From Myxococcus xanthus (lineage in GTDB: Bacteria > Myxococcota > Myxococcia > Myxococcales > Myxococcaceae): a DNA stretch of 64,000 bases. A model generated the notes under the pieces. It was not told the origin of the DNA. It saw only the letters and a list, made by a program, of their open reading frames with translations, and made no database searches. The position numbers were made by a program, and so were the translations under genes. The stretch spans positions 62,001-126,000 of the forward strand of contig NZ_CP017174.1 of NCBI RefSeq assembly GCF_006402735.1, written 5' to 3'. Below are positions 44,031-57,191 of the stretch, one piece after another (position 1 is the first letter of the stretch; each line of letters opens with the position of its first letter).

Positions 44031-44110
44031 TTAATTTTGTCGATATTGGCCGTTTTCGGCCAATATGCGCACGTATCTTGCGCATATCTGCGTATTATCG
44101 ACAGAGTTAA
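44031..44110. promoter_or_regulatory. Nested inverted repeats upstream of the AbiEi-like gene
   Basis: A/T-rich 80-base block with three inverted repeats: outer arms 44031-44045 and 44096-44110 (13 of 15 matching), a perfect 10-bp pair ATATTGGCCG (44043-44052) and CGGCCAATAT (44057-44066), and ATATGCGC (44063-44070) with GCGCATAT (44080-44087). AbiEi antitoxins autoregulate by binding inverted repeats at their own promoter, so this is probably the operator and promoter. Binding is inferred. Confidence 0.6.
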
Positions 44111-45234
44111 TGGACTCGACTGCGGAGTTTCGAGAAGCATTCTGGAAGCAGGACCTCCGATTGCCTCGGGGGGTGGAACTCCTGCGCCAAGACGTCTTCC
44201 TGTTGCCGCGCAGAGGACCTGGTGGGCAGGCGGTCTATGAACTCGCCGAGGTGGTTCTCCCCCAGGTACGAGTGCCGGTCCTGATGGCCTACCGCGCGCC
44301 GTTGCTCCCGGCGGACGTTCACTCACTTCGGGAACGCCTGCGCGCGGCGAGCGTGGCGCTGGACCGGCGGGATGGGACCGCCGAGCGCCTGCCCGTTGTC
44401 CGCATCCCGATGATTGCGACGGATTCCGCGTCATCTGGAGTCATCGCGGCCTGCGAGCATGAAGACGTCGCATTGGTCGATCAGCGAGGAACATTCTTCC
44501 TGCGCTCAGGCAGCACCTTCATTCGTGTACAGGGGCGCGAACCGTCGCAGCGGCGTCCCCGTGAGCCGGTGTTCCACGGGAAGGGGTGCCGCATTGTCCG
44601 GACCCTGTTGCAGTCGCCGGGAGAAGCGCAGACGGTCCGCGCGTTGTCGGAGCGGACGCAGACCAGTTACTCCTATGCGTACGGCGTCGTCCGCCACCTC
44701 GTGCTCGATGGGTATGTCGAGCCGGTCGGCAAGCGGAGTGGGTTTCGGCTGAGGGCTCCCGTGCGCCTGCTGAGGGCGTGGATGGCAAGTGGCGAGAAGA
44801 CCTCCGTGACACTGGACGGTTTCAACGCGCCTTCCACCACGCCGGAGTTGTTGGGGAAGGGCCTTGAGCGATTGAAGGCCCAAGGCATTCGGGGCATCTA
44901 CACGCTGGCGAGCGCCTTGCTACCTGAAGAGCGCTTCGTGTCGGGACTGCCTCACGGGCTCTATCTCACGGGCTCTATCGACGCGGCTGTCGAAGCCTTC
45001 GGGCTGCGCCGGCTGATGCCTCATAACTTCTGGGTGCTGCGGGCAGAGCCCTCGGCTGAGACGGATGCCGGGGGGGTCTTCTTTTCGCCACGAACGCTTC
45101 CTCATGGCCCGGGTGTGGCGTTGCCTCAGTTGACCGTGGACTTCCATCAAAGTGGGGGGCGCGGCAAGGAGCAGGCGGATGAGCTGGTGCGGCAATTCGC
45201 ACGGGCGCTGCCCATTCCAGAGGATGCGCCATGA
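44110..45234 (+). CDS. AbiEi-like winged-helix protein, probable type IV antitoxin
   Basis: 374 residues. A winged helix is visible at about 157-215 (KGCRIVRTLLQSPGEAQTVR, SERTQTSYSYAYGVVRHLVL, DGYVEPVGKRSGFRL), with an N-terminal alpha/beta part and a C-terminal domain typical for AbiEi-type regulators. The TGA overlaps the ATG of a nucleotidyltransferase gene (ATGA), the usual AbiEi-AbiEii arrangement. ATG 44110 is chosen; the ATG at 44065 would lie inside the inverted repeats. The family call rests on context as much as on sequence. It represses its own operon and neutralises the toxin, if the family role holds. Confidence 0.65.
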   Translation: MDSTAEFREAFWKQDLRLPRGVELLRQDVFLLPRRGPGGQAVYELAEVVLPQVRVPVLMAYRAPLLPADVHSLRERLRAASVALDRRDGTAERLPVVRIPMIATDSASSGVIAACEHEDVALVDQRGTFFLRSGSTFIRVQGREPSQRRPREPVFHGKGCRIVRTLLQSPGEAQTVRALSERTQTSYSYAYGVVRHLVLDGYVEPVGKRSGFRLRAPVRLLRAWMASGEKTSVTLDGFNAPSTTPELLGKGLERLKAQGIRGIYTLASALLPEERFVSGLPHGLYLTGSIDAAVEAFGLRRLMPHNFWVLRAEPSAETDAGGVFFSPRTLPHGPGVALPQLTVDFHQSGGRGKEQADELVRQFARALPIPEDAP

Positions 45235-46001
45235 CCGAGCAGGAGCAGTTCGAAGAGATTCTGCGAGAACTGGGCGAACTCCTGCTGCAACTGGGAGATC
45301 TCTCCTGGAACGTCGTGCTCATCGGTGGGCAGGTGCTCGCGTTGGAGTCGCTCCGCAAGGGTGGGTCGGGGGTCATCGCCGTCACGACCGACACAGGAGC
45401 CGTGATTGAGCGCGGCTATTCCCACGAGCCTGATCTGCTCTTCGACATGGATGGCACCGAGTTCGGGGCGGAGCGTCTACCTGAGGTCCTCAAGCTCCGG
45501 GGGTACGAGCGAACGCGCAGTTTTCGTTGGTCGAAAACCCTTCCGGGAGGGGTGATGCACCTCGACCTGTTCGCACCTGCTGGAGTCGATTTGGAACAAC
45601 TCCCCACGAACATGACGCCGCTGCCTGATGCGCGGTTGGCGCTGCGTGGAAGTCAGCCCGTGTTTCTCCCAATGGGAGAGACCTCGCTGCGAATCCGGCT
45701 GCCGGACGCAGTTGGATTCCTCTCGATGAAGGTTCGCGCCAAGTTGGAGCAGCGGCCAACGGAGACCAAGGACTGCTTCGACATCTTTGCCTACGTCAAG
45801 CTCGTGGGGCTGGATGACGTGCGCGCATCACTGAAGCAGGCCGGCGAGGAAGGGCAGGCGCTCCGTGCCAAACTGCAGCGCTTGTTCTGGAGCACGGATG
45901 CCGCAGGTGTGCTGGATATCATTGCCTATGCAGAAGGACTCGAAGAGGTCGACCGGGCTTTGCTCGCTCAGGCGGCCGTCGACTTGTTCGCGGATCTCTA
46001 A
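45231..46001 (+). CDS. AbiEii-like nucleotidyltransferase, probable type IV toxin
   Basis: 256 residues. Nucleotidyltransferase signs: NVVLIGGQVLALES (GG at 32-33), HEPDLLFD with Glu66-x-Asp68 in place of the usual DxD, and the third acidic residue in HLDLF (Asp112). A helical C-terminal half ends in TETKDCFDIFAYVKL and an extended helical tail. AbiEii toxins transfer nucleotides to tRNA or another target. GC content and codon use near the start of the pair are lower than for neighbours, which fits transfer. ATG overlaps the antitoxin stop. Confidence 0.65.
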   Translation: MTEQEQFEEILRELGELLLQLGDLSWNVVLIGGQVLALESLRKGGSGVIAVTTDTGAVIERGYSHEPDLLFDMDGTEFGAERLPEVLKLRGYERTRSFRWSKTLPGGVMHLDLFAPAGVDLEQLPTNMTPLPDARLALRGSQPVFLPMGETSLRIRLPDAVGFLSMKVRAKLEQRPTETKDCFDIFAYVKLVGLDDVRASLKQAGEEGQALRAKLQRLFWSTDAAGVLDIIAYAEGLEEVDRALLAQAAVDLFADL

Positions 46002-46014
46002 GCTCACTTCCGGT

Positions 46015-46084
46015 CAGTCGACGACCTCGGGAAACTGAGGGCGACTTGGGGGCCCTTGGATTTCCGAGGCACCCCTTGGAGCAT
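46015..46084. repeat. Right imperfect direct repeat flanking the AbiE-like module
   Basis: 46015-46040 repeats the last codons and stop of the M28 peptidase gene (24 of 26 bases) and CCCTTGGAGC recurs at 46073-46082. The region carries no gene. See the left copy at 43955. Confidence 0.65.
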
Positions 46085-46189
46085 GGCGTCGTCGGCGTCA
46101 CGCGGGTGGTTGCTCAGCCTACGGGCCTCGTCTGCGTTGGCGTATGTCTTGCTTGGCTCGGACAGTCACTGGTTCGTGGGAGGACATTC

Positions 46190-46516
46190 ATGATGAAGCA
46201 AGGCAAGCGTGTTCCGGGGCTGAAGTGGATCATCGCCGCGTTCATCCTGGCGGGCTGTCGTGGCGCCGAAGGCGAGGTGCCCCCGTCGAATGAATCCAGG
46301 CTGTCGTTGAAGGAGGGCCAGGTGCTCGGCCCTGCATGCACTGGAGAGCAGAAGCAATGCCCAGAGGGGCTCTCCTGCGCCTCGTTCAACCTGGGCGCTG
46401 GCCCCGAAGTCCGCTGCGTCCAGTCCCCGGAAATCTGTGACTTGTTCAAGTGCAGCAGCGGCGAGTGCGTGGTGCTGGAGAGCCACCCGATCCAGGTTCG
46501 TTGCAGCGGCTCCTGA
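46190..46516 (+). CDS. Small Cys-rich lipoprotein
   Basis: 108 residues. Signal with lipobox WIIAAFILAGC, then a mature part with nine Cys in close spacing (GPACTGEQKQCPEGLSCASF, CVQSPEICDLFKCSSGECVV), so disulfides are expected. ATG 46190 has GGGAGGA six bases upstream; the frame upstream of it is not used. A family name cannot be given. It lies 188 bases after the AbiE module. Confidence 0.72.
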   Translation: MMKQGKRVPGLKWIIAAFILAGCRGAEGEVPPSNESRLSLKEGQVLGPACTGEQKQCPEGLSCASFNLGAGPEVRCVQSPEICDLFKCSSGECVVLESHPIQVRCSGS

Positions 46517-46528
46517 GCCGCGCGGCCG

Positions 46529-48262
46529 CTACGGCTCCGGCGCGGACTGGAGGCGCCGGCGCTTGCGGCGCAGGTGCTGCTCCGGCAGGAACAGCGTCAC
46601 CAGCAGCGCCGCACCGGCGATGAACAGGGCCACGTGGTACACGGCGGAGACGCCGCGAGTGAACGCCATCTTCAACGCCCGGCCCGCCGCGTCCACCGCC
46701 GCCAGCGCCTGCCGCTCCTCCGCGTCCACCTTCGCCCGGGCCTCGGGGACGACGGCCGTCCGCCGTTCGGCGTCGAACTCCGCGCGCACCCGCGCCTTCA
46801 CCTCCTCCGCGCGGAACACCTGTCCGGTGGGGCCGCCTTCGCCACTGACGCCCGGCGCGGCGCGCATCACCTCGGCCTTCACGGTGTCCGGGAGCGCGGC
46901 GGTGGCCTGCGCCATGCGCGTCTCCAGCTCCGAGGACAGCGTGGACGCGAACACCGTCCCCAGCAGCGCCACGCCCAGCGTCATGCCCAACTGCCGGAAG
47001 AACGTGGCCGCCGCCGTGCCCACGCCAATCTGGTCTGGCGGCACCGCGTTCTGGATGGCCATCGTGTAGAGCGGAATCGAAGGCCCCAGGCCCAGGCCCA
47101 CCAGCACCATCTTCGCCGTCACCTCCGCCTGGGTGGAGTCCGGCGTCAGCGTGAAGGCCATGACGGCGAAGCCCGCAATCAGCAGCACCAGCGAGCCCAG
47201 CAGCAGCGCCTTGTAGCGGCCCACCCGGGACACGAGCTGCCCGCTCAACACGTTCCCCGCCACCACGCCCAGCGTCAGCGGCATGACCGTGAGCCCCGAG
47301 CGCGTCGCCGACAGCCCCACCACGTTCACCATGAACAGCGGCAGGAAGACGACGCCCGACAGGAACGCCCCGCCGATGATGAACACCGCCGCGTTGCCCG
47401 CGCTGAAGGCCCGCAGGCGGAACAGCTTCAGGTCGAGCAGGGGCTCGGGCGCGCGCCGCTCCGCCCAGAGGAAGGCCGCCAGGCCCACCGCCGACAGCGC
47501 GAACAGGCCCAGGATGCGCCACGACGTCCATGCCCAATCGCCGCCGTCTTGCTTCCCCAGGCTGAGCGCCAGCAGCAGCGGCACCAGCGCCACCGCGAGC
47601 GTGAACGCCCCCACCAGGTCCAACCCACCCCGGGAATCACGCTGGGGCTTCAGCCGTGGCATGCGCAACAGCACCAGCGCCAGCGCCACCGCGCCCACGG
47701 GCAAGTTGATGAAGAACACCCAGTGCCAGCCCAGGTGGTCGGTGATGAACCCACCGGCCAGCGGCCCCACCACGCTGGCCAGGCCGAACATGGCGCCGAA
47801 GAGGCCCTGGTACTTGCCTCGCTCACGCGGCTCGAAGAGGTCGGCCACCACCGCCAGCGCGGCGGTGAACAGCGCCGCGCTGCCCAGCCCCTGCACGGCG
47901 CGGAAGAGGATGAGCGCCACCGTGGAGCGCGCCACGCCGCACAGGAAGCTGCCCGCGAGGAAGATGACGATGCCCGCGGCCAGCACCGCGCGCCGGCCCA
48001 GCAGGTCCGACAGCTTGCCCCACACGGGCACCATCATCGTCGACGCGACGAAGTACGACGTGGTGAGCCACGGGTAGAGCGAGGCGGGGATTCGCAGGTC
48101 CGCCTGGATGGCCGGCCCCGCGGTGGCGACAATCGTCTGGTCCAGCGCGGCGAGCAATAGCCCCAGCACCGCGCCCAGCAGGGTGAAGACCTTCTGGGCG
48201 CGCGTGAACGCCGGGAAGGCGGATGGCGCATCGGCGGTGGCGGGAGCGGCGGACGGGGCCAT
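46529..48262 (-). CDS. MFS transporter, DHA2/EmrB-QacA family (14 TM)
   Basis: 577 residues with 14 hydrophobic segments. Family marks: [19 protein letters not shown] in helix 1, [13 protein letters not shown] in loop 2-3, [13 protein letters not shown] and [10 protein letters not shown]-like loop. A 100-residue Ala/Glu/Arg-rich cytosolic insert lies before the last helix. It exports drugs or lipids by proton antiport. ATG 48262 is taken; codons further upstream read as a shadow. Converges closely (12 bases) on the lipoprotein gene. Confidence 0.85.
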
Positions 48263-48537
48263 GTGTCGCGGTGGCTCCCGGGACAGGGAGCGCCAGGGGA
48301 AAGGTGGGGACGTTCCTACCAGACGGCCACCAGCAGAGCCCCTTTGCGGCACCAGATGTTTCCGTGCGGCGGCAAGATTGCGCCCGTTCCGGCGCCGCGA
48401 GGGCGCGCGCGCCGGGAGATGCCCCGCACCGGGCAAGCACTTCGCGTTGCGTGGAGTGAACGGTCTATACGCTGCGGACGTCCAATCCCAGACGTCGCGA
48501 GGGACCGGCCCGCGACGCGTTTCCCGGACAACACCCC

Positions 48538-50577
48538 ATGCAACGCATTCGCGCTGTCGCCCTGACCTCGCTGCTGGCCGTTTCACTCTGCGCCTGTGAT
48601 GACCCCGTGGAGCCGGGGGAACCCGACTCGGGCACGCCGGATGCCGGGCAGCCCGACGGAGGGGCGCCCGACGCAGGCGCTCCCGATGCGGGTGAGCCAG
48701 ACGCGGGAGCCGGGGACGGAGGCACGTTCCTCTCCGAGGTGCCGCTCTGGCAGGTGGAGCACGACCCCGCGCACGCCACCGGTTGCTTCGGCCGCTCCAT
48801 CGCGCTGGGCGACGTGAATGGCGATGGCCAGAGGGACCTGGTCGTCGCCGCGCCCCCGTGTCTTTCGCTCACGAGAGACCCCGGCCGGGTGTCGCTCTTC
48901 GCGGGTGAGGCGCCGTACTTCTCCACGCAGGGGGTGACGGCGGTGATGGATTGGCGCAACGCGAACTCGAGGACCAATGGCAACCGGATGACGGTGTCCA
49001 CGGGCAACGTGGACGGGGACGACTTCGCGGACGTGCTCGTCTCCGGCCAGTACGGCGCGCTCGTCTTCAAGGGCCAGGCGGACCTGGCCAGCGTCTTCAC
49101 CGAGCCCGCGTTCGTGGTGCCCGGCGGCGGCGTGTACAACAACGCCGTCTTCGCGGACGTCAACGGGGACGGCCTGGATGACGTGGTCAGCGTGAGGGGG
49201 CTGGCGGTGTCCGTCTTTCTGGCCACGCCCGGCGCGCCGGGCGGGCCCTTCACCCTGGTGGAGCGCGCGGAGCCGCTCTACACCGGCTCCGTCCGCCGCG
49301 CGGGAGACGTGGACGGGGATGGGGCACAGGACCTCGTGCTGTCGAGTTCGATGGGGGATGGCTATTCGCTGGTGCCTGGCTGCAAGTCCGGCAGTCCCGG
49401 GCCGTGTGAGGGCGGGCTCGCGGCGCAGCCCTTCTGGACGGTGGGCAGCCAATCGCTGAGCCTCTTCCCGGACCTGAATGGGGACGGGGTGCCGGAGCGC
49501 TTCACGGGGCCGGGCGGTGGCACGGTGCGGCTCCACCTGTCGGAGGCGGGCGGCGGTTATGCCTCCGCCCCGACGTGGTCCGCCATGGGCGACCCCGTCT
49601 TCGCGAACTTCGGCTCATCCATCACCTCGGTGGGGGACGTGGACGGAGACGGCCAGCGCCAGGACTTCGTCGTGGGCTCCGACGGGCGGCTGTACTTCTA
49701 CTCACCGGCGGAAGGGGTCTCCTCGGCGCTGAATCCCGTGTGGTCCTGGCCCCGCGCGGACGTCCTGCCGCAGGGGTACGAAGGCTTCAACCGCTTCGCC
49801 GTCATCCCGCCGGGAGACCTGAACGGCGACGGCTTCGATGACCTGGTGGCGGGCTTGGCGCCCCCGACGGGGCTCGTCGGCGGGCCGGCGGGCCGGGTCG
49901 TCATTCTCGGTGGTGGCCAGGTGCCCGCGGAGCCGGCGACGGCACCGTATCTGCCGCCAGTGGCGGGATGTGGCCTGACGCTGGACCCGGAGCACGGCAA
50001 GGCGGACCTCGCCGTGGACGCGGACGTGCTGGCCCGCACGTTGTACGTGGAGCGCCGCACCTTCGCCGCTGACTCCTGCGAGATACTGGAGGGCTGCGTG
50101 CCCGCGCCCGGTGAGCGGCGCCTGCTGCGCTTCAGCACCTCCATCCAGAACCTGGGCTCGGCGGCGGCCGTGGTGCCCGGCTGGGACGAGCGGCCGGACC
50201 TCTACATCTGGGACGAGTGCCACGGCCATGACCACCTCACCAACTTCGCCCAGTACGCGCTGCGGGACGCGCAGGGCAACGAAGTCGTGGAGGGCCGCAA
50301 GCAGGGCTTCTACCTCATTGACTACCAGCGCCAGTGCGATGACGCGGCGCCCTACCTTCTCTCATTCGACCGGATGAGCATCTCCGTCGGCTGGACGGAC
50401 ATCTACGTCGCCGACATCCCCTGTCAGTGGATTGACATCACCGACCTGACGGACGGCACGTACTCCCTGCGCGTGGGCGTGGATGAGCAGGACATCATCG
50501 AGGAAGCGGACGTGCTCCCCAACGAGGCCATCCTGAACGTCCGCATCCAGGGCGATTCCGTGACGGTCGTCCCGTAG
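48538..50577 (+). CDS. Lipoprotein with FG-GAP-like repeats and C-terminal lysyl oxidase domain
   Basis: 679 residues. Signal and lipobox (LLAVSLCAC), an Asp/Pro/Gly/Ala linker ([13 protein letters not shown]), then about six VCBS/FG-GAP-type blades with Ca-binding DxNGDGxxD loops ([41 protein letters not shown]). The last 200 residues are a lysyl oxidase (LOX): copper site HGHDH (His562, 564, 566), Lys588 ([11 protein letters not shown]) and Tyr623 ([14 protein letters not shown]), 35 apart, exactly as the LTQ pair Lys320/Tyr355 in human LOX, and the [18 protein letters not shown] end. A copper amine oxidase at the cell surface is likely. Start ATG 48538 with 275 bases of promoter region before it. 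Confidence 0.88.
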
Positions 50578-50824
50578 TCCCAGCGGCCTTCCGTTCCCGC
50601 CCCGCGTGGAGACAGGGGGTGGCCGCGCGGGCGCATGCTGGGTGTGGGGGCCGGCACGTCCCGGGAGTGGGACACCTACACGGATGGGCCGGGAACCGCT
50701 TCGCGCGGGGTTCCAGACGGATTTCCGTCACGCTGCATTTGCACCGAGGGAATGTCGCGTGCAATCACCCGTTCCGGGGCCCGTATCAACAGCGCGACGT
50801 GCAACGCAGCGGAGAAAATCTGAC

Positions 50825-52051
50825 GTGAGCATCCGGGTCGATGTGTGGGAGGGGGCGCGCATCGCGCTGTTCTCGCTCCGTTCCAACCGCCTGCGGACCG
50901 TGCTGACGACGGTGGGCATTGGCGTGGGCGTGTGCACGCTGCTGGCCATTGTCGGCATCATCCAGGGCATCAACCGCTCCTTTGAGGACCAGCTTTCGAG
51001 CATTGGCGCCAACACGCTCCAAATCTCGAAGTTCCCCTGGACGCTCAACGGCGACTGGTGGTCGTACCGCAACCGCAAGGACCTGAGCGCGGACCTGGTG
51101 CCGCCCATCCTCAACGCGTCCGAGCACGTGCTGGCCGCGGCGCCGCTCTTCTTCGAGCGCGTGGAGGGCCGCTTCCTGGACCGCAAAATCGGCTCGGTGC
51201 TGCTGGTGGGCACCACGCCGGACTACGCCACGGTGGGCTCGTTCACCCTGGAGCGGGGCCGCTTCCTCACCCACGCGGACGTGGACAACCGGGCGCAGGT
51301 GGCCGTCATCGGCGCGGAGCTCGTGCGCTCGCTCTTCCCCGGAGTGAACCCGGTGGGGCAGCGCATCCTCTTCGAGGGCAAGCCCTTCCGCGTGGTGGGA
51401 ACACTGGAGGCCAAGGGCACCATCCTGGGAGAGAACCAGGACCTGGTGGTGATGGTGCCCTTCCGCACCTTCCTGGCGCACTTCGGCAAGAAGCGCTCAC
51501 CCAACATCGCGGTGGCCCTCACGTCGCCGGAGCATGCGCCAGCGGTGGTGGACAAGCTCACCGCGGTGCTCCGCCGGGAGCGCAACACGCCGCCGGGGCT
51601 GCCGGACGACTTCGCCATCAACCGGCCGGACCAGTTGGCCAGCATGTACGCGCAGCTCACCGGGGCGCTCTATGGCGCGGCCATGGGCGTGGGCCTCATC
51701 ACGCTGCTGGTGGGCGGCATCGGCATCATGAACATCATGCTGGTGTCGGTGCGCGAGCGGACGCGGGAGATTGGCGTCCGCCGGGCGCTGGGGGCCCGCA
51801 AGCGCACCATCATCCTCCAGTTCCTGATGGAGGCCTCCTGTGTGTCCGCCCTGGGCGGCACCATGGGGACGGTGGTGGGCCTGGGGCTGGCGCGCATCGT
51901 GTCCTTGATTACACCCCTGGCGGCGGCGGTGGAGCCGCTGACGGTGGTGGCTGGCGTGGGGTTCGCGGCGATGGTGGGGCTGCTGTTCGGCATCTGGCCG
52001 GCGGCGCGGGCGGCGAACCTGGACCCGGTGGAAGCGCTTCGCCACGAGTGA
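50825..52051 (+). CDS. ABC transporter permease, MacB/FtsX family (first)
   Basis: 408 residues: one N-terminal membrane helix (RTVLTTVGIGVGVCTLLAIV), a MacB_PCD periplasmic domain, and three C-terminal helices with LVGGIGIMNIMLVSVRERTR, EIGVRRALGARKR, LDPVEALRHE. GTG 50825 is chosen with GGAG about nine bases upstream. It has a partner permease 19 bases downstream, but no ATPase or adaptor gene in the window, so the pump must use one encoded elsewhere. Confidence 0.85.
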   Translation: MSIRVDVWEGARIALFSLRSNRLRTVLTTVGIGVGVCTLLAIVGIIQGINRSFEDQLSSIGANTLQISKFPWTLNGDWWSYRNRKDLSADLVPPILNASEHVLAAAPLFFERVEGRFLDRKIGSVLLVGTTPDYATVGSFTLERGRFLTHADVDNRAQVAVIGAELVRSLFPGVNPVGQRILFEGKPFRVVGTLEAKGTILGENQDLVVMVPFRTFLAHFGKKRSPNIAVALTSPEHAPAVVDKLTAVLRRERNTPPGLPDDFAINRPDQLASMYAQLTGALYGAAMGVGLITLLVGGIGIMNIMLVSVRERTREIGVRRALGARKRTIILQFLMEASCVSALGGTMGTVVGLGLARIVSLITPLAAAVEPLTVVAGVGFAAMVGLLFGIWPAARAANLDPVEALRHE

Positions 52052-52070
52052 TGGACGGGAGACGGCGGCG

Positions 52071-53291
52071 ATGATGGCAATCTGGGACACCCTGCGGCTG
52101 GCGTTCGGAACGTTCCGTTCCAACCTGCTGCGCTCATTCCTGACGCTGCTGGGCATCGTCATTGGCGCCACCACGGTGGTGTCGATGATGGGGCTCATCG
52201 AGGGCCTGCGCATCCAGGTGAACGAGAGCATGTCCGAGCTGGGCTCCGACTGCTTCCAGGTGCAGCGGCTGCCTTTCGGCGGAAACCTGTCCCTGGCGGA
52301 GCTGGCGCGGCGGCCCCGGCTGAACGAGGGCGATTTGGAGGCCATCCGGCTGCAGCCGTCGGTGCTGCTGGCGGCGGCGGAGGACTCCAAGGGTGGACAG
52401 AAGGTGTCCACGCAGCAGCGCGAGTCGCGCCCCAATGTGACTATTTGGGCCGGCACGCCGGAGTACTTCCAGACGAACTCGGTGGTGGTGGAGTTCGGGA
52501 GGCCCTTCACGGACGCGGAGTACCTGGACGGCCGCCGCGTGGCGGTGATTGGCCAGGACCTGGCGGACACGTTGTTCCCGGGCGTGCAGCCCCTGGGGCA
52601 GAACATCCGCATCCTGGGGCGCAGCTTCCAGGTGATTGGCACGCTCAAGCGCCGCGGCAGCTTCATGGGCGGAGGCAGCCAGGACAACCAGGTGATGATG
52701 CCGCTGTCCGTCTACAAGGCGCTGTTCGGGGTGCGCAACTACCGGGTGAGCGTCCAGGCCCAGTCGGCGGAGGTGCTCCAGCGCGCGCAGGACGAGGTGA
52801 CGCTGCTGATGCGGCGGCGCCACAACCTGAAGCCGCTGGAGGAGGATGACTTCTTCGTGTTCTCCAACGAGAGCGCCACGGAGATGTTCAACAACATCTC
52901 GAAGGTGATTTCCGCGGCCAGCTTCGGCGTGTGCATGCTGTCGCTGCTGGTGGGCGGCATCGGCATCCTGAACATCATGCTGGTGGCGGTGACGGAGCGC
53001 ACCCGGGAGATTGGCATCCGCAAGGCGCTGGGCGCGAAGAAGCGCCGCATCCTCGCGCAGTTCGCCATCGAGGCGGTGGTGCTGTCGCTGGTGGGTGGCG
53101 TGTTGGGCGTGGGCCTGGGCATGGGCCTGGCGCACCTGGCGAAGTGGATGGTGGGGCTGCCCGCGCAGGTGCCGGCCTGGGCGGTGATGCTGTCGCTGGC
53201 CATGAGCAGCGGCGTGGGCCTGCTGTTCGGCATCTACCCGGCCGCGCGCGCCGCGAAGCTGGACCCCGTGGAGGCCATGCGGACGGACTGA
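52071..53291 (+). CDS. ABC transporter permease, MacB/FtsX family (second)
   Basis: 406 residues with the same layout as its neighbour: LLRSFLTLLGIVIGATTVVS, the MacB_PCD domain, and LVGGIGILNIMLVAVTERTR, EIGIRKALGAKKR, KLDPVEAMRTD. The two are about 35% alike by eye and probably form a heterodimer. Starts with two ATGs (52071). Probable substrates are toxins, peptides or lipoproteins. Confidence 0.85.
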   Translation: MMAIWDTLRLAFGTFRSNLLRSFLTLLGIVIGATTVVSMMGLIEGLRIQVNESMSELGSDCFQVQRLPFGGNLSLAELARRPRLNEGDLEAIRLQPSVLLAAAEDSKGGQKVSTQQRESRPNVTIWAGTPEYFQTNSVVVEFGRPFTDAEYLDGRRVAVIGQDLADTLFPGVQPLGQNIRILGRSFQVIGTLKRRGSFMGGGSQDNQVMMPLSVYKALFGVRNYRVSVQAQSAEVLQRAQDEVTLLMRRRHNLKPLEEDDFFVFSNESATEMFNNISKVISAASFGVCMLSLLVGGIGILNIMLVAVTERTREIGIRKALGAKKRRILAQFAIEAVVLSLVGGVLGVGLGMGLAHLAKWMVGLPAQVPAWAVMLSLAMSSGVGLLFGIYPAARAAKLDPVEAMRTD

Positions 53292-53328
53292 CGCCACGCC
53301 GGTGCCGCAGGGTGGCTGGGAATGAAAC

Positions 53329-53361
53329 GGGGCCTCCTCCGCGCGGTGCGGAAGAGGCCCC
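53329..53361. terminator. Bidirectional terminator between permeases and small peptide gene
   Basis: GGGGCCTCCTCCGC facing GCGGAAGAGGCCCC, 14-base arms with a single mismatch and a five-base loop, between the stops at 53291 and 53389. Confidence 0.7.
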
Positions 53362-53388
53362 AGGTGTTTCAGCACGTGTGTCCGGGGA

Positions 53389-53559
53389 TTACGGACACGG
53401 GGTGCCGCAAATCCACTCACCGGTGATGGGGTGCTTGTAGCAGGGCGGCTGGCAGTCGTCGGCGACGGCCGTGGCCGGCGTCATGGTGATTCCCAGGCCC
53501 AGCACGGCGGCGGCGGCGGTGAGGACGACGGCGATTCGGAGGTGCTTGCGAGCAGTCAT
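53389..53559 (-). CDS. 56-residue secreted four-cysteine peptide
   Basis: Signal peptide of about 33 residues (basic start, VVLTAAAAVLGLGITM, cleavage near ATAVA) and a mature peptide of about 23 residues with four Cys (36, 40, 51, 55): DDCQPPCYKH, then GEWICGTPCP. Two disulfides or a metal site are expected. ATG 53559 has GGAGAG upstream. I recognise no family. Convergent with the permease operon across the terminator at 53329. Confidence 0.6.
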   Translation of the reverse strand: MTARKHLRIAVVLTAAAAVLGLGITMTPATAVADDCQPPCYKHPITGEWICGTPCP

Positions 53560-53715
53560 TGCGGTCTCTCCAACAGCGGTGTCCGTACAGCGCGGCGGAG
53601 TGTGGAGCCCAGGTCTGACAATCACAATGCGCCGCGTGTCACACGCACTGCGTCTGAGACTGCAAGGACTTGGGCGGTGCACAACGCGTGTGTGTGTGAA
53701 GCAGATGCAGCGGAA

Positions 53716-54444
53716 CTATTGCGTGTGTCCGTCTGGGCGAGGTCCACTGCCTGCCCATTGATAGCCCAACGTCGCGCCCACGCCGATGAATCCCAGGGCG
53801 ATGAGCTGACGGCCGCTCTTCAAGCGGGCGCTGGGCTTGGACAGCTTCACCAGGGACTCGTGGACGATGACGCCCAACAGCGTGCCCAGCGCCGCGCCGC
53901 CGAGCGCGCCCAGGTAGGCACGGCCCGGATGGTGACTCTTGCCAAAGGCGAGCTCGCCCAGGCCCCACGTCCCGAGTGCGGTCAGGGGCGGTGTCAGCAC
54001 GAAGCCGCCGCTGAAGGCCACGGTCTCCAATTCCATCCACCGCCCCGGGCTGGGCGCCGCGGGGCGGAAGAAGAGGAGCCGCGAGGGGATGGCGCCCAGG
54101 AGCATTCCCGCCGCCGTCTCCGTCGCGGTGGCACCCACGCGCGTGTCCCCGCCCACGCGGCTGGCGCCCCAGACGCCGGCCACGGGAAGCAACGCGAGCC
54201 CTCCGTGCGCCACCCAGGCCCCCTTGGGGAGCGGCACGTCCTCCGGTTCGATGTACGTGGGCACGGCCGCTCTTTCCGGTGACGGGGCGGCGGGCGTGTC
54301 GAAGTACTTGGAACGAGGCTCGGAAGGTGGGGTGTCGCGCAGCGGTGCGTCCGCGGCGACCGCGTGACTCACGGTGGGCAGCAGGCAGCCCAGCAGCAGC
54401 GTGCACGCGAGGGTGGAGCGTCGGTGAGAAGGCACGTTGGGCAT
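53716..54444 (-). CDS. Hypothetical membrane protein
   Basis: 242 residues. Signal (LACTLLLGCLLPTVSHAVAA), a Pro-rich linker and three or four membrane-like segments rich in Gly/Ala (GGLALLPVAGVWGASRV, AYLGALGGAALGTLLGVIV, LIALGFIGVGATLGYQWAG). Gly-Ala-rich helices with small residues resemble outer-membrane or peptidoglycan-associated proteins of myxobacteria. No family recognised. Start at 54444 (ATG) or GTG 54477. Confidence 0.55.
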   Translation of the reverse strand: MPNVPSHRRSTLACTLLLGCLLPTVSHAVAADAPLRDTPPSEPRSKYFDTPAAPSPERAAVPTYIEPEDVPLPKGAWVAHGGLALLPVAGVWGASRVGGDTRVGATATETAAGMLLGAIPSRLLFFRPAAPSPGRWMELETVAFSGGFVLTPPLTALGTWGLGELAFGKSHHPGRAYLGALGGAALGTLLGVIVHESLVKLSKPSARLKSGRQLIALGFIGVGATLGYQWAGSGPRPDGHTQ

Positions 54445-54591
54445 TGGCGACACGCGGTGTGTCCCGAAGGTGAGCACGCGGGGCGGGGGCTTCCACCCTC
54501 ACGGTGGAGATGTGCCGTTTACGCGGCTCGGGGTGTCTTCCGTGAGACATCGGCAGGTGCGCCGCGGGCCATGGGCGCTTAGCTTCCGGCA

Positions 54592-55839
54592 GTGAAGCTC
54601 GCCTGGCTCGTGCCCGTGGTGTTGATTGCCGCTGGGTGCCCCGCTCCCAATCACCGGCATGACCTGCGCCTGCGCTCATTGCCGGGAAGCAGCCCGGAGG
54701 CGCGTTCGCTCGCGTTCTTCCAGTCGCTGGGCGTGGCGCTGGTGCCGGGCCACCGCGTGGAGCTGGTGGAGAACGGCTTCATCTTCGACGCCATCGAAGA
54801 GGAGATTCTCGCCGCGCACACCAGCATCCACATCACCAGCTACATCTGGCGGCCCGGTGAGCCGTCGGACCGGCTGGTGCGGGCGCTGGCGGCGCGGCGG
54901 CCCGGGGTTGCGTGCCGCGTGCTCGTGGACCCGTTGGGCAGCGTCAACTTCGAGGCGGTGATGCCCGCGCTGGCGGCCAGCGGCTGTGACGCGCGCTACT
55001 TCCGGCCCATCCAAGGTGACTTCGTGGCCCTGGACGCGGTCCGTCTCCGGGCGCGGAGCCACCGGAAGCTGGTGGTGCGGGATGGCGAGGTGGGCATCAC
55101 GGGTGGCTGGGGCATCTGGAAGAGCTGGATGGGGAATGCGCAGGGCGCGGATTACTGGCGCGACATGAACATCCGCGTGGAGGGCCCGGCCGTGCGGGAC
55201 ATGCAGGTCGCCTTCGCCCAGAACTGGCAGGAGTCAGGTGGGGATTTCCTGCCCGCGACCGACTTCCCGGAGCCGCGCTACGCAGGGGACGCGCGCGCGG
55301 GCTTCGTGGCCAGCACGGACAACCGGTTCCTGTCGGACGCGCGGCGAATGACGCTGCTCACCATCGCGGCGGCGAAGGAGCGGCTCTGGATTGCGAACTC
55401 GTACTTCATCCCCTCCGACGCCATCAGTGACATGTTGTTGGAGAAGGTGAAGCAGGGCGTGGACGTGCGGGTGCTGGTGCCCGGGCGGCACCATGACGTC
55501 GGGCCGGTGCACGCGGCGCAGCGGGCGACGTATGCGCGCTTGCTGGAGGGTGGCGTGCGCATCTGGGAGTACGAGCTGTCGATGATGCATTCCAAGACGA
55601 TGCTCGTGGATGACTCCCTGTCCGTCGTGGGCTCCACCAACATGGACCCGCTGGCGTTGACGACGTTGGAGGAGTGCTCGGTGGTGGTGGAGGACCCGGC
55701 GCTGGCGGCGCAGCTCGCCGCATCTTTTGAGAAAGATTTACGCCACTCGCGAGAAATTCACTGGAGCGGGTGGAGGCGGCGCGGGCTCTTGCAGAAGCTG
55801 GGCGAGCGGCTGCCGTGGTTCATCGGCAACTATCTCTGA
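54592..55839 (+). CDS. Phospholipase D / cardiolipin-synthase-like lipoprotein
   Basis: 415 residues. Lipobox VVLIAAGC. Two HKD motifs: His157, Lys159, Asp164 (SHRKLVVRDGEVGITGG) and His333, Lys335, Asp340 (MHSKTMLVDDSLSVVGSTN), so both halves of the active site are there. Layout is like bacterial cardiolipin synthases, but the lipoprotein signal and missing N-terminal helices point to a periplasmic or surface PLD. Start GTG 54592. Confidence 0.85.
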   Translation: MKLAWLVPVVLIAAGCPAPNHRHDLRLRSLPGSSPEARSLAFFQSLGVALVPGHRVELVENGFIFDAIEEEILAAHTSIHITSYIWRPGEPSDRLVRALAARRPGVACRVLVDPLGSVNFEAVMPALAASGCDARYFRPIQGDFVALDAVRLRARSHRKLVVRDGEVGITGGWGIWKSWMGNAQGADYWRDMNIRVEGPAVRDMQVAFAQNWQESGGDFLPATDFPEPRYAGDARAGFVASTDNRFLSDARRMTLLTIAAAKERLWIANSYFIPSDAISDMLLEKVKQGVDVRVLVPGRHHDVGPVHAAQRATYARLLEGGVRIWEYELSMMHSKTMLVDDSLSVVGSTNMDPLALTTLEECSVVVEDPALAAQLAASFEKDLRHSREIHWSGWRRRGLLQKLGERLPWFIGNYL

Positions 55840-55874
55840 CGCAGCAGTGCAGGGCCGGATGGTAGAAACCGGGC

Positions 55875-57191
55875 ATGGCTCGCGCCCGCCCGACATCGCC
55901 TCGTTGCCCCCGCTGTCATGCGCCCATCGTCCTCGAGGAAGGCCGGGTGCTCTACACCTGTGGCTACTGCAACGCCTCCATCGACACGCAGGGCGAGAAG
56001 GCGCCGCGTCCCGAGTATCAGGCGCCGGCCTCGACGGGGGCGGGAGGGAACACGGGCGGCCTGTTGGTGGGAGGCATCCTGTCGCTCTGCTTCACGGCGG
56101 GGCTCGTGGCCTTTTACAGCTTCAGCTCCGTCACGGAGTCCACCAGCGGGCCCACCCCCACGAGCGTCCCGGAGCCGTCTCCCGTCGTCGTGGCGCCGCC
56201 ACCGGTGGCGGAGAAGAAGGCGAAGTTCCAATGGGACTCCCAGGGTGTTCCCCTCGCCGTGGACCTCAACGGTGACGGAACGGACGACATCATCGGCCGT
56301 ATCCGTCGCCTCAGTCTCGTTCCCGGAAAGACGGAGACGCGCAACCAGGTTGCCGCGTTCGATGGGAAGTCGCTCGACCTGCTCTGGGAAGCGGACCTCG
56401 AGGGGACGATCTCGGACTTGTCCGGCGCGGTGCACGTCGTTCACCAGGGCGGCCGCGTGGTGATGAGTGAGCCGGGCGCGGTGCATCTCCTCGAGCCGAA
56501 GACAGGCAAGCCGCTGGGGCGGGTGGCGCTCTCGGACAAGCCCAGCAGGCTCTGCATCCCGAAGGGCGACACCGAGTCCGTCTGGGTCGAGGTGGTGGAT
56601 GGGCAGAACCTCCTGTTCAACACGAAGACGGCGACCGCCCGGCCCGCCATCGAGCCTCCGCCCCCCTGCGCGCCGGTCAAATGGAGCCACCATCTCTGTT
56701 TCGTTCCGGTGTTCAGGAAGAGTCCCGTCCCTTGTGCGCGCCCGCGCAACCTTCCCGCCGTTCCCGGATTCCGGGCGGAGAACGTCTACAAGCTCGAGGA
56801 CCTGGACGTCGCGATGGGTGCACGGAGCCCTGGGAGCCGGGTGCCCATGGTGGCGGTGTTCCGGCGGGGCGAGAAGGCCGCGCTGTGGGCGGAGAACGTC
56901 GCCGACATGGACCCCAGGAACGTGAAGGAGTCCACGGTGGACGTCGTCGACTTCTCCGAGGACTCGCTCTTCATGGTCTACGCGTTGAAGGAGGGCGGGG
57001 AGCAGCTCGTTCGTAGGGACCTGCTGAAGGGGAGCGTGGGGTGGGACGTCCCCATTCCCAACTCCCGGAGCGGCTCGGGGGTGTCCCAGATTCGGGAGCA
57101 CGGTGGGCGCATCTATGTCCCTCACTGGGTGTGGCTGGATGTCTTCGACGCGAAGACGGGCAACCTGATTGGCACCCTGGGCGCGTGGTGA
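55875..57191 (+). CDS. Zinc-ribbon membrane protein with beta-propeller-like domain
   Basis: 438 residues. Residues 10-35 are a zinc ribbon (CPRCHAP and CGYCNAS). A membrane helix at about 62-85 (GGLLVGGILSLCFTAGLVAF) is followed by a Pro-rich linker and a domain of repeated strands like PQQ or FG-GAP blades (AVDLNGDGTDDIIGRIRR, HLLEPKTGKPLGRVA, DVFDAKTGNLIGTLGAW). I recognise no named family; a sensor or scaffold is possible. ATG 55875 is 35 bases after the PLD gene. Confidence 0.7.
   Translation: MARARPTSPRCPRCHAPIVLEEGRVLYTCGYCNASIDTQGEKAPRPEYQAPASTGAGGNTGGLLVGGILSLCFTAGLVAFYSFSSVTESTSGPTPTSVPEPSPVVVAPPPVAEKKAKFQWDSQGVPLAVDLNGDGTDDIIGRIRRLSLVPGKTETRNQVAAFDGKSLDLLWEADLEGTISDLSGAVHVVHQGGRVVMSEPGAVHLLEPKTGKPLGRVALSDKPSRLCIPKGDTESVWVEVVDGQNLLFNTKTATARPAIEPPPPCAPVKWSHHLCFVPVFRKSPVPCARPRNLPAVPGFRAENVYKLEDLDVAMGARSPGSRVPMVAVFRRGEKAALWAENVADMDPRNVKESTVDVVDFSEDSLFMVYALKEGGEQLVRRDLLKGSVGWDVPIPNSRSGSGVSQIREHGGRIYVPHWVWLDVFDAKTGNLIGTLGAW

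Follow-up and report, generated by a model that had tools for sequence, protein, structure and literature searches.

An FG-GAP/lysyl oxidase lipoprotein fusion in Myxococcus xanthus: predicted architecture, distribution and candidate roles

Lysyl oxidases (LOX) are known mainly for building the animal extracellular matrix, where they cross-link collagen. In this family, Cu(II) held at three histidines drives formation of the LTQ cofactor from a lysine and a tyrosine, and the LTQ quinone then carries out the oxidation of primary amines; the products are aldehydes, H2O2 and ammonia. The family also has prokaryotic members. A haloarchaeal LOX is an active amine oxidase on lysine polymers that is inhibited by BAPN, and its specificity is relaxed, with many small amines oxidised, including aminoglycosides and polymyxin (PMC6452851). 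Bacterial LOX, including those of Deltaproteobacteria, have already been published, and these papers raise the question of what LOX do in bacteria (PMC4448552, PMC6452851). Prokaryotic LOX architectures are simple in all but three sequences, according to Grau-Bove 2015 (PMC4448552).

We analysed a 64,000-nucleotide window of DNA from M. xanthus, a social bacterium of soils (contig NZ_CP017174.1, positions 62,001 to 126,000) that encodes a LOX domain joined to an FG-GAP beta-propeller in a predicted lipoprotein (Table 1), present as one copy in this genome. Literature searches returned no description joining lysyl oxidase with FG-GAP as in this fusion, and no match for lysyl oxidase, bacteria and Myxococc- names combined. 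The lipoprotein fusion appears undescribed, whereas the LOX family itself is not new; the fusion may be among the three non-simple architectures counted in PMC4448552. An earlier note on this DNA had recognised the LOX domain, its catalytic set, the propeller and the anchor, all of which stand, but it overlooked both the published bacterial LOX and the conserved transporter neighbourhood. The fusion offers a tractable test case: the genus includes the genetic model M. xanthus, the specific inhibitor BAPN exists, and there are natural contrasts in a clean absence (one case), a frameshift (one), a paralogue without the five catalytic residues (one) and tandem paralogues with different sorting signals.

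The window protein shares with animal LOX and LOXL2 (PF01186, 5ze3) the catalytic fold, the HxHxH copper motif and the Lys/Tyr cofactor pair, but has no SRCR or propeptide region, carrying a lipid anchor and an FG-GAP propeller instead, and is one residue shorter than animal LOX directly after HxHxH. Cysteines C514, C520, C561 and C629 align with those of human LOX, whereas the other human disulfides lack counterparts here. At the position of the first human histidine, H289, the protein has Asp559, which is the usual situation in bacterial LOX (PMC4448552). The haloarchaeal LOX is likewise prokaryotic and a copper/LTQ amine oxidase, as would be expected of the window protein by analogy; it differs in being archaeal and in having no reported FG-GAP propeller, and its activity was measured, whereas the window protein is known from sequence. 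Other bacterial LOX, from Bacteroidota and Sorangium loci and from Grau-Bove 2015 (PMC4448552), share the domain and the catalytic residues. Bacteroidota LOX carry a type 9 secretion tail at the C-terminus, in contrast to the N-terminal lipid anchor and propeller found here.

Architecture, predicted fold and lipid anchor

Table 1 Features of the FG-GAP/LOX locus, in window coordinates
Feature	Position	Strand	Evidence
FG-GAP/LOX lipoprotein gene	48538-50577	+	Single ORF, ATG start, 679 aa
Signal peptide and lipobox, residues 1-20	48538..48597	+	Cys20 invariant in 33 homologues
Low-complexity Pro/Asp/Ala/Gly linker, residues 21-62, predicted disordered	48598..48723	+	pLDDT <50 for residues 1-61
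Seven-bladed FG-GAP beta-propeller, residues 63-464	48724..49929	+	PF01839, PF13517, seven DxDxDG-like motifs, integrin alpha matches
Lysyl oxidase catalytic domain, residues 477-679	49966..50574	+	PF01186, 5ze3 superposition
Copper-ligand motif H562-G-H564-D-H566	50221..50235	+	Residue positions, alignment, conservation
Lys588, predicted LTQ-forming lysine	50299..50301	+	Residue position, alignment, conservation
Tyr623, predicted LTQ-forming tyrosine	50404..50406	+	Residue position, alignment, conservation
MFS drug-efflux-type transporter, DHA2/EmrB subfamily	46529..48586	-	TIGR00711 3.2e-82, PF07690
MacB-like permease 1, no ATPase domain	50606..52051	+	PF12704, PF02687
MacB-like permease 2, no ATPase domain	52071..53291	+	PF12704, PF02687; synteny

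The Pfam Lysyl_oxidase model matches residues 490-677 (E 1.1e-28; 100.7 bits against a curated cut-off of 20.4), and none of the NCBIfam models matched the protein. In a sequence search of the PDB, the only clear relative of the C-terminal domain was human LOXL2 (chain 5ze3, E 2.4e-22), whose structure is of the precursor form. A full-length AlphaFold2 model, built with 33 sequences and containing, as such models do, neither metal nor cofactor, reached a mean pLDDT of 83.6 and a pTM of 0.84, and its only long stretch below pLDDT 50 lies in the N-terminal 61 residues. The earlier note had proposed structure prediction for the C-terminal part, and this gives a LOX fold both ways: the predicted domain superposes on 5ze3 at Z 21.4 (2.3 A, 190 residues, 33% identity) when taken from the full-length model, and at Z 20.5 (2.7 A, 194 residues) when folded alone, the next, unrelated fold scoring Z 7.7. 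Profile match, PDB sequence match and model superposition together bear out the homology to LOX, and the profile and sequence matches, those to FG-GAP included, go well past what chance would give.

The copper-motif region reads W558-D-E-C561-H562-G-H564-D-H566, and the translation confirms K588 and Y623; the numbers that the earlier note had assigned to all five catalytic residues are correct. Its comparison of spacing also holds: 35 residues separate Lys588 from Tyr623, as they separate the human LOX pair K320/Y355, and the alignment independently places K588 and Y623 at the LTQ positions of 5ze3.

Upstream of the LOX domain, matches to FG-GAP (PF01839, 1.3e-21) and FG-GAP_3 (PF13517, 1e-16) cover a region with seven calcium-type DxDxDG-like motifs, starting at residues 92, 157, 207, 257, 312, 367 and 427, a number that fits a seven-bladed propeller. 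The model folds this region as a propeller. Its matches, at 3-4 A and a Z of about 21, include integrin alpha headpieces as well as other beta-propellers, so the integrin-like description given earlier is apt as to profiles, motifs and fold. The likeness to the integrin alpha subunit comprises the seven blades, the DxDxDG-type motifs and the headpiece match, but identity is about 18-20% at ~4 A, and many unrelated propellers tie with the integrins. We therefore discounted kinship argued from match rank; as modelled, the likeness is one of fold only.

The lipobox reads L-C-A-C20 and, with its cysteine unvaried among the homologues, supports the proposed lipid anchor; the linker that follows differs in length between the 33 full-length fusions. 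In M. xanthus, Lys at +2 marks inner-membrane lipoproteins (8 of 12 proteins) and Ala at +7 marks those of the extracellular matrix (7 of 10), rules that derive from few proteins, and outer-membrane lipoproteins have no clear sorting signal (PMC3222651). Because the mature N-terminus, CDDPVEP, has neither +2 Lys nor +7 Ala, the outer membrane would be its destination by default, and by these rules the window lipoprotein is probably located there. Lys does occupy +2 in a fair number of the 33 homologues, though in fewer than half; some of these are second copies from genomes in which the first copy has another residue there. At three loci (L042, L043 and L044) LOX genes stand in tandem, one copy with +2 Lys and the other with +2 Pro, which suggests copies dedicated to different membranes.

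Conservation of the catalytic set and predicted activity

The 33 full-length fusions, whose identity to the window protein spans 48-96%, all keep H562, H564, H566, K588 and Y623 as well as the LOX cysteines. The same five residues, together with Cys514, 520, 561 and 629, show no variation either across 36 bacterial LOX domains, a set drawn from Myxococcota (including Sorangium) and Bacteroidota. The LOX domain is under purifying selection, with dN/dS of about 0.2-0.4 against close relatives, a value that is approximate, since the genome is GC-rich and the counting method simple. This invariance and this selection argue against a catalytically idle LOX fold that serves purely as a binding or structural module. 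A point in favour of such a module is an FG-GAP/LOX paralogue in genome G029 (L049:677-2617 (+)) that has lost all five catalytic residues and keeps its reading frame; for the window protein we consider an idle fold very unlikely. The earlier expectation of an active amine oxidase was a fair inference from the profile, the structure models and the conservation, and with the haloarchaeal LOX as precedent the window protein is very probably an active copper/LTQ enzyme.

The G029 paralogue is, by its sequence, a natural inactive copy, and the joint loss of the five residues in this one degenerate copy with an open frame also counts in favour of a catalytic role for them in the fusions. Separately, the LOX gene of Myxococcus genome G017 (L045:6945-9167 (-)) is frameshifted inside the catalytic domain, which may reflect either genuine loss or faulty assembly.

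Distribution and gene neighbourhood

Of the 195 Myxococcota genomes sampled, 71 have a LOX domain, and these fall in 18 of the 90 genera. The earlier note had suggested following the fusion across bacteria; among the matches listed it is confined to the family of the window's genome (Myxococcus, Corallococcus and several other genera), and in the LOX-domain tree the fusions form one clade (24 rows, support 100/99). Outside this clade, none of the scanned myxobacterial and Bacteroidota LOX proteins gave an FG-GAP match. One candidate for a fusion outside the family, L097, has several DxDxDG motifs, yet it too had no FG-GAP match and was rejected. Because Bacteroidota LOX proteins bear a type 9 secretion tail, bacterial LOX appear to have been exported repeatedly. 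One of these, a Flavobacteriales protein of 1494 aa (L105:5428-9909 (+)), combines LOX with PKD domains, the secretion tail and four putative metal-binding motifs of the MopE type (PF11617, 4.1e-25), a hint that the enzyme may carry its own supply of copper.

In the window, the LOX gene is flanked by a divergent MFS gene, whose true start probably lies inside the annotated ORF, and by two MacB-like permease genes. The arrangement recurs: a divergent MFS gene lies near 45 of the 63 fusion genes whose surroundings were compared, and for 50 of the 63 MacB permease 1 lies no more than 6.5 kb away in the same orientation, counts that are not independent, as some regions end at contig ends and some genes stand in tandem at one locus. 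In G029, G033 and several relatives of G033 the gene order is altered and the MacB link is retained. No ATPase partner for the MacB-like pair was found among the scanned genes (44065-57191).

Given neighbours of the efflux type and the broad substrate range of the haloarchaeal enzyme, oxidation of amine drugs is the main rival to a role in modifying surface proteins. Under this explanation, small primary amines, such as aminoglycosides, polymyxin-like peptides or prey polyamines, would be oxidised outside the inner membrane, for detoxification or scavenging, in parallel to the neighbouring transporters. That those neighbours recur across several genera, even where the gene order has changed, favours it, as do the oxidation of aminoglycosides and polymyxin by the haloarchaeal LOX (PMC6452851) and the finding of no lysine-rich collagen-like partner in the window's genome. 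The neighbours do not need LOX, however, since LOX-less relatives retain them. Four closely related Myxococcus genomes are without the LOX gene, which is therefore dispensable; all four keep the MacB pair and at least three keep the MFS gene, the contig of the fourth ending at the site. Some paralogues, moreover, are unlinked and have no MFS or MacB neighbours, and small substrates would not obviously call for an integrin-like propeller of 400 residues. We regard detoxification or scavenging as rather unlikely.

Retention of the pair in the four LOX-less relatives also led us to reject LOX and the MacB pair as an obligatory functional unit. In one of these genomes, G018, almost exactly the LOX gene is missing, with ~71 bp left between flanks homologous to the window. 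In a second, G023, the MFS and MacB genes are instead separated by ~2.1 kb of unrelated DNA, which replaces LOX and carries a HipA-like kinase gene (PF07804; L080:4414-5742 (-)). The other two, G015 and G021, have other DNA at the site (loci L078 and L081). Judged from these sequences, the position occupied by LOX may be a slot for varying cargo.

Predicted action at the cell surface and candidate substrates

The reading that we slightly favour is of an exported, membrane-anchored, active LOX that would act at or outside the cell surface. The protein would be exported and lipidated at Cys20, ending most likely in the outer membrane, and a flexible tether of ~40 residues would hold the propeller and the LOX domain beyond it. 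The propeller, presumably stabilised by calcium, would serve as a docking or spacing module that presents the LOX domain to amine substrates on the cell surface or beyond it. With copper on His562/564/566, Lys588 and Tyr623 would be converted to LTQ by self-processing, and the enzyme would then turn primary amines into aldehydes, with H2O2 and ammonia as further products; the likeliest such amines would be lysine side chains on proteins of the surface or the extracellular space. The aldehydes could go on to cross-link. That protein lysine is the main substrate is an even call or a little better. Counting against this reading, the neighbouring genes encode transporters and are not matrix genes, the gene is dispensable in four relatives, and the collagen-like proteins of the genome contain hardly any lysine and do not follow LOX in their occurrence.

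A fuller version of the surface reading has the propeller LOX covalently cross-linking surface lysines of its own or neighbouring cells, in social life or predation, and has duplicates sorted between membranes by the +2 residue, copies with +2 Asp, Pro or Ser going to the outer membrane and those with +2 Lys to the inner. Taken jointly, these elements make an improbable whole.

The earlier note suggested amines on matrix, prey or the cell's own surface proteins as possible targets, and one version of this, the collagen type, is weakened here. Cross-linking in the animal manner, in which LOX would join collagen-like lipoproteins of the cell's own matrix, is extremely unlikely. A PF01391 search of the window's genome and 60 relatives did find two collagen-like, lipoprotein-like proteins in the window's genome, which speaks for this explanation, but they are almost free of lysine (one Lys in 303 Gly-X-Y residues), and such proteins occur in 59 of the 61 genomes whether LOX is present or not. 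The two proteins, encoded at L209:2960-4867 (+) and L210:2132-3112 (-), both have lipobox-like starts.
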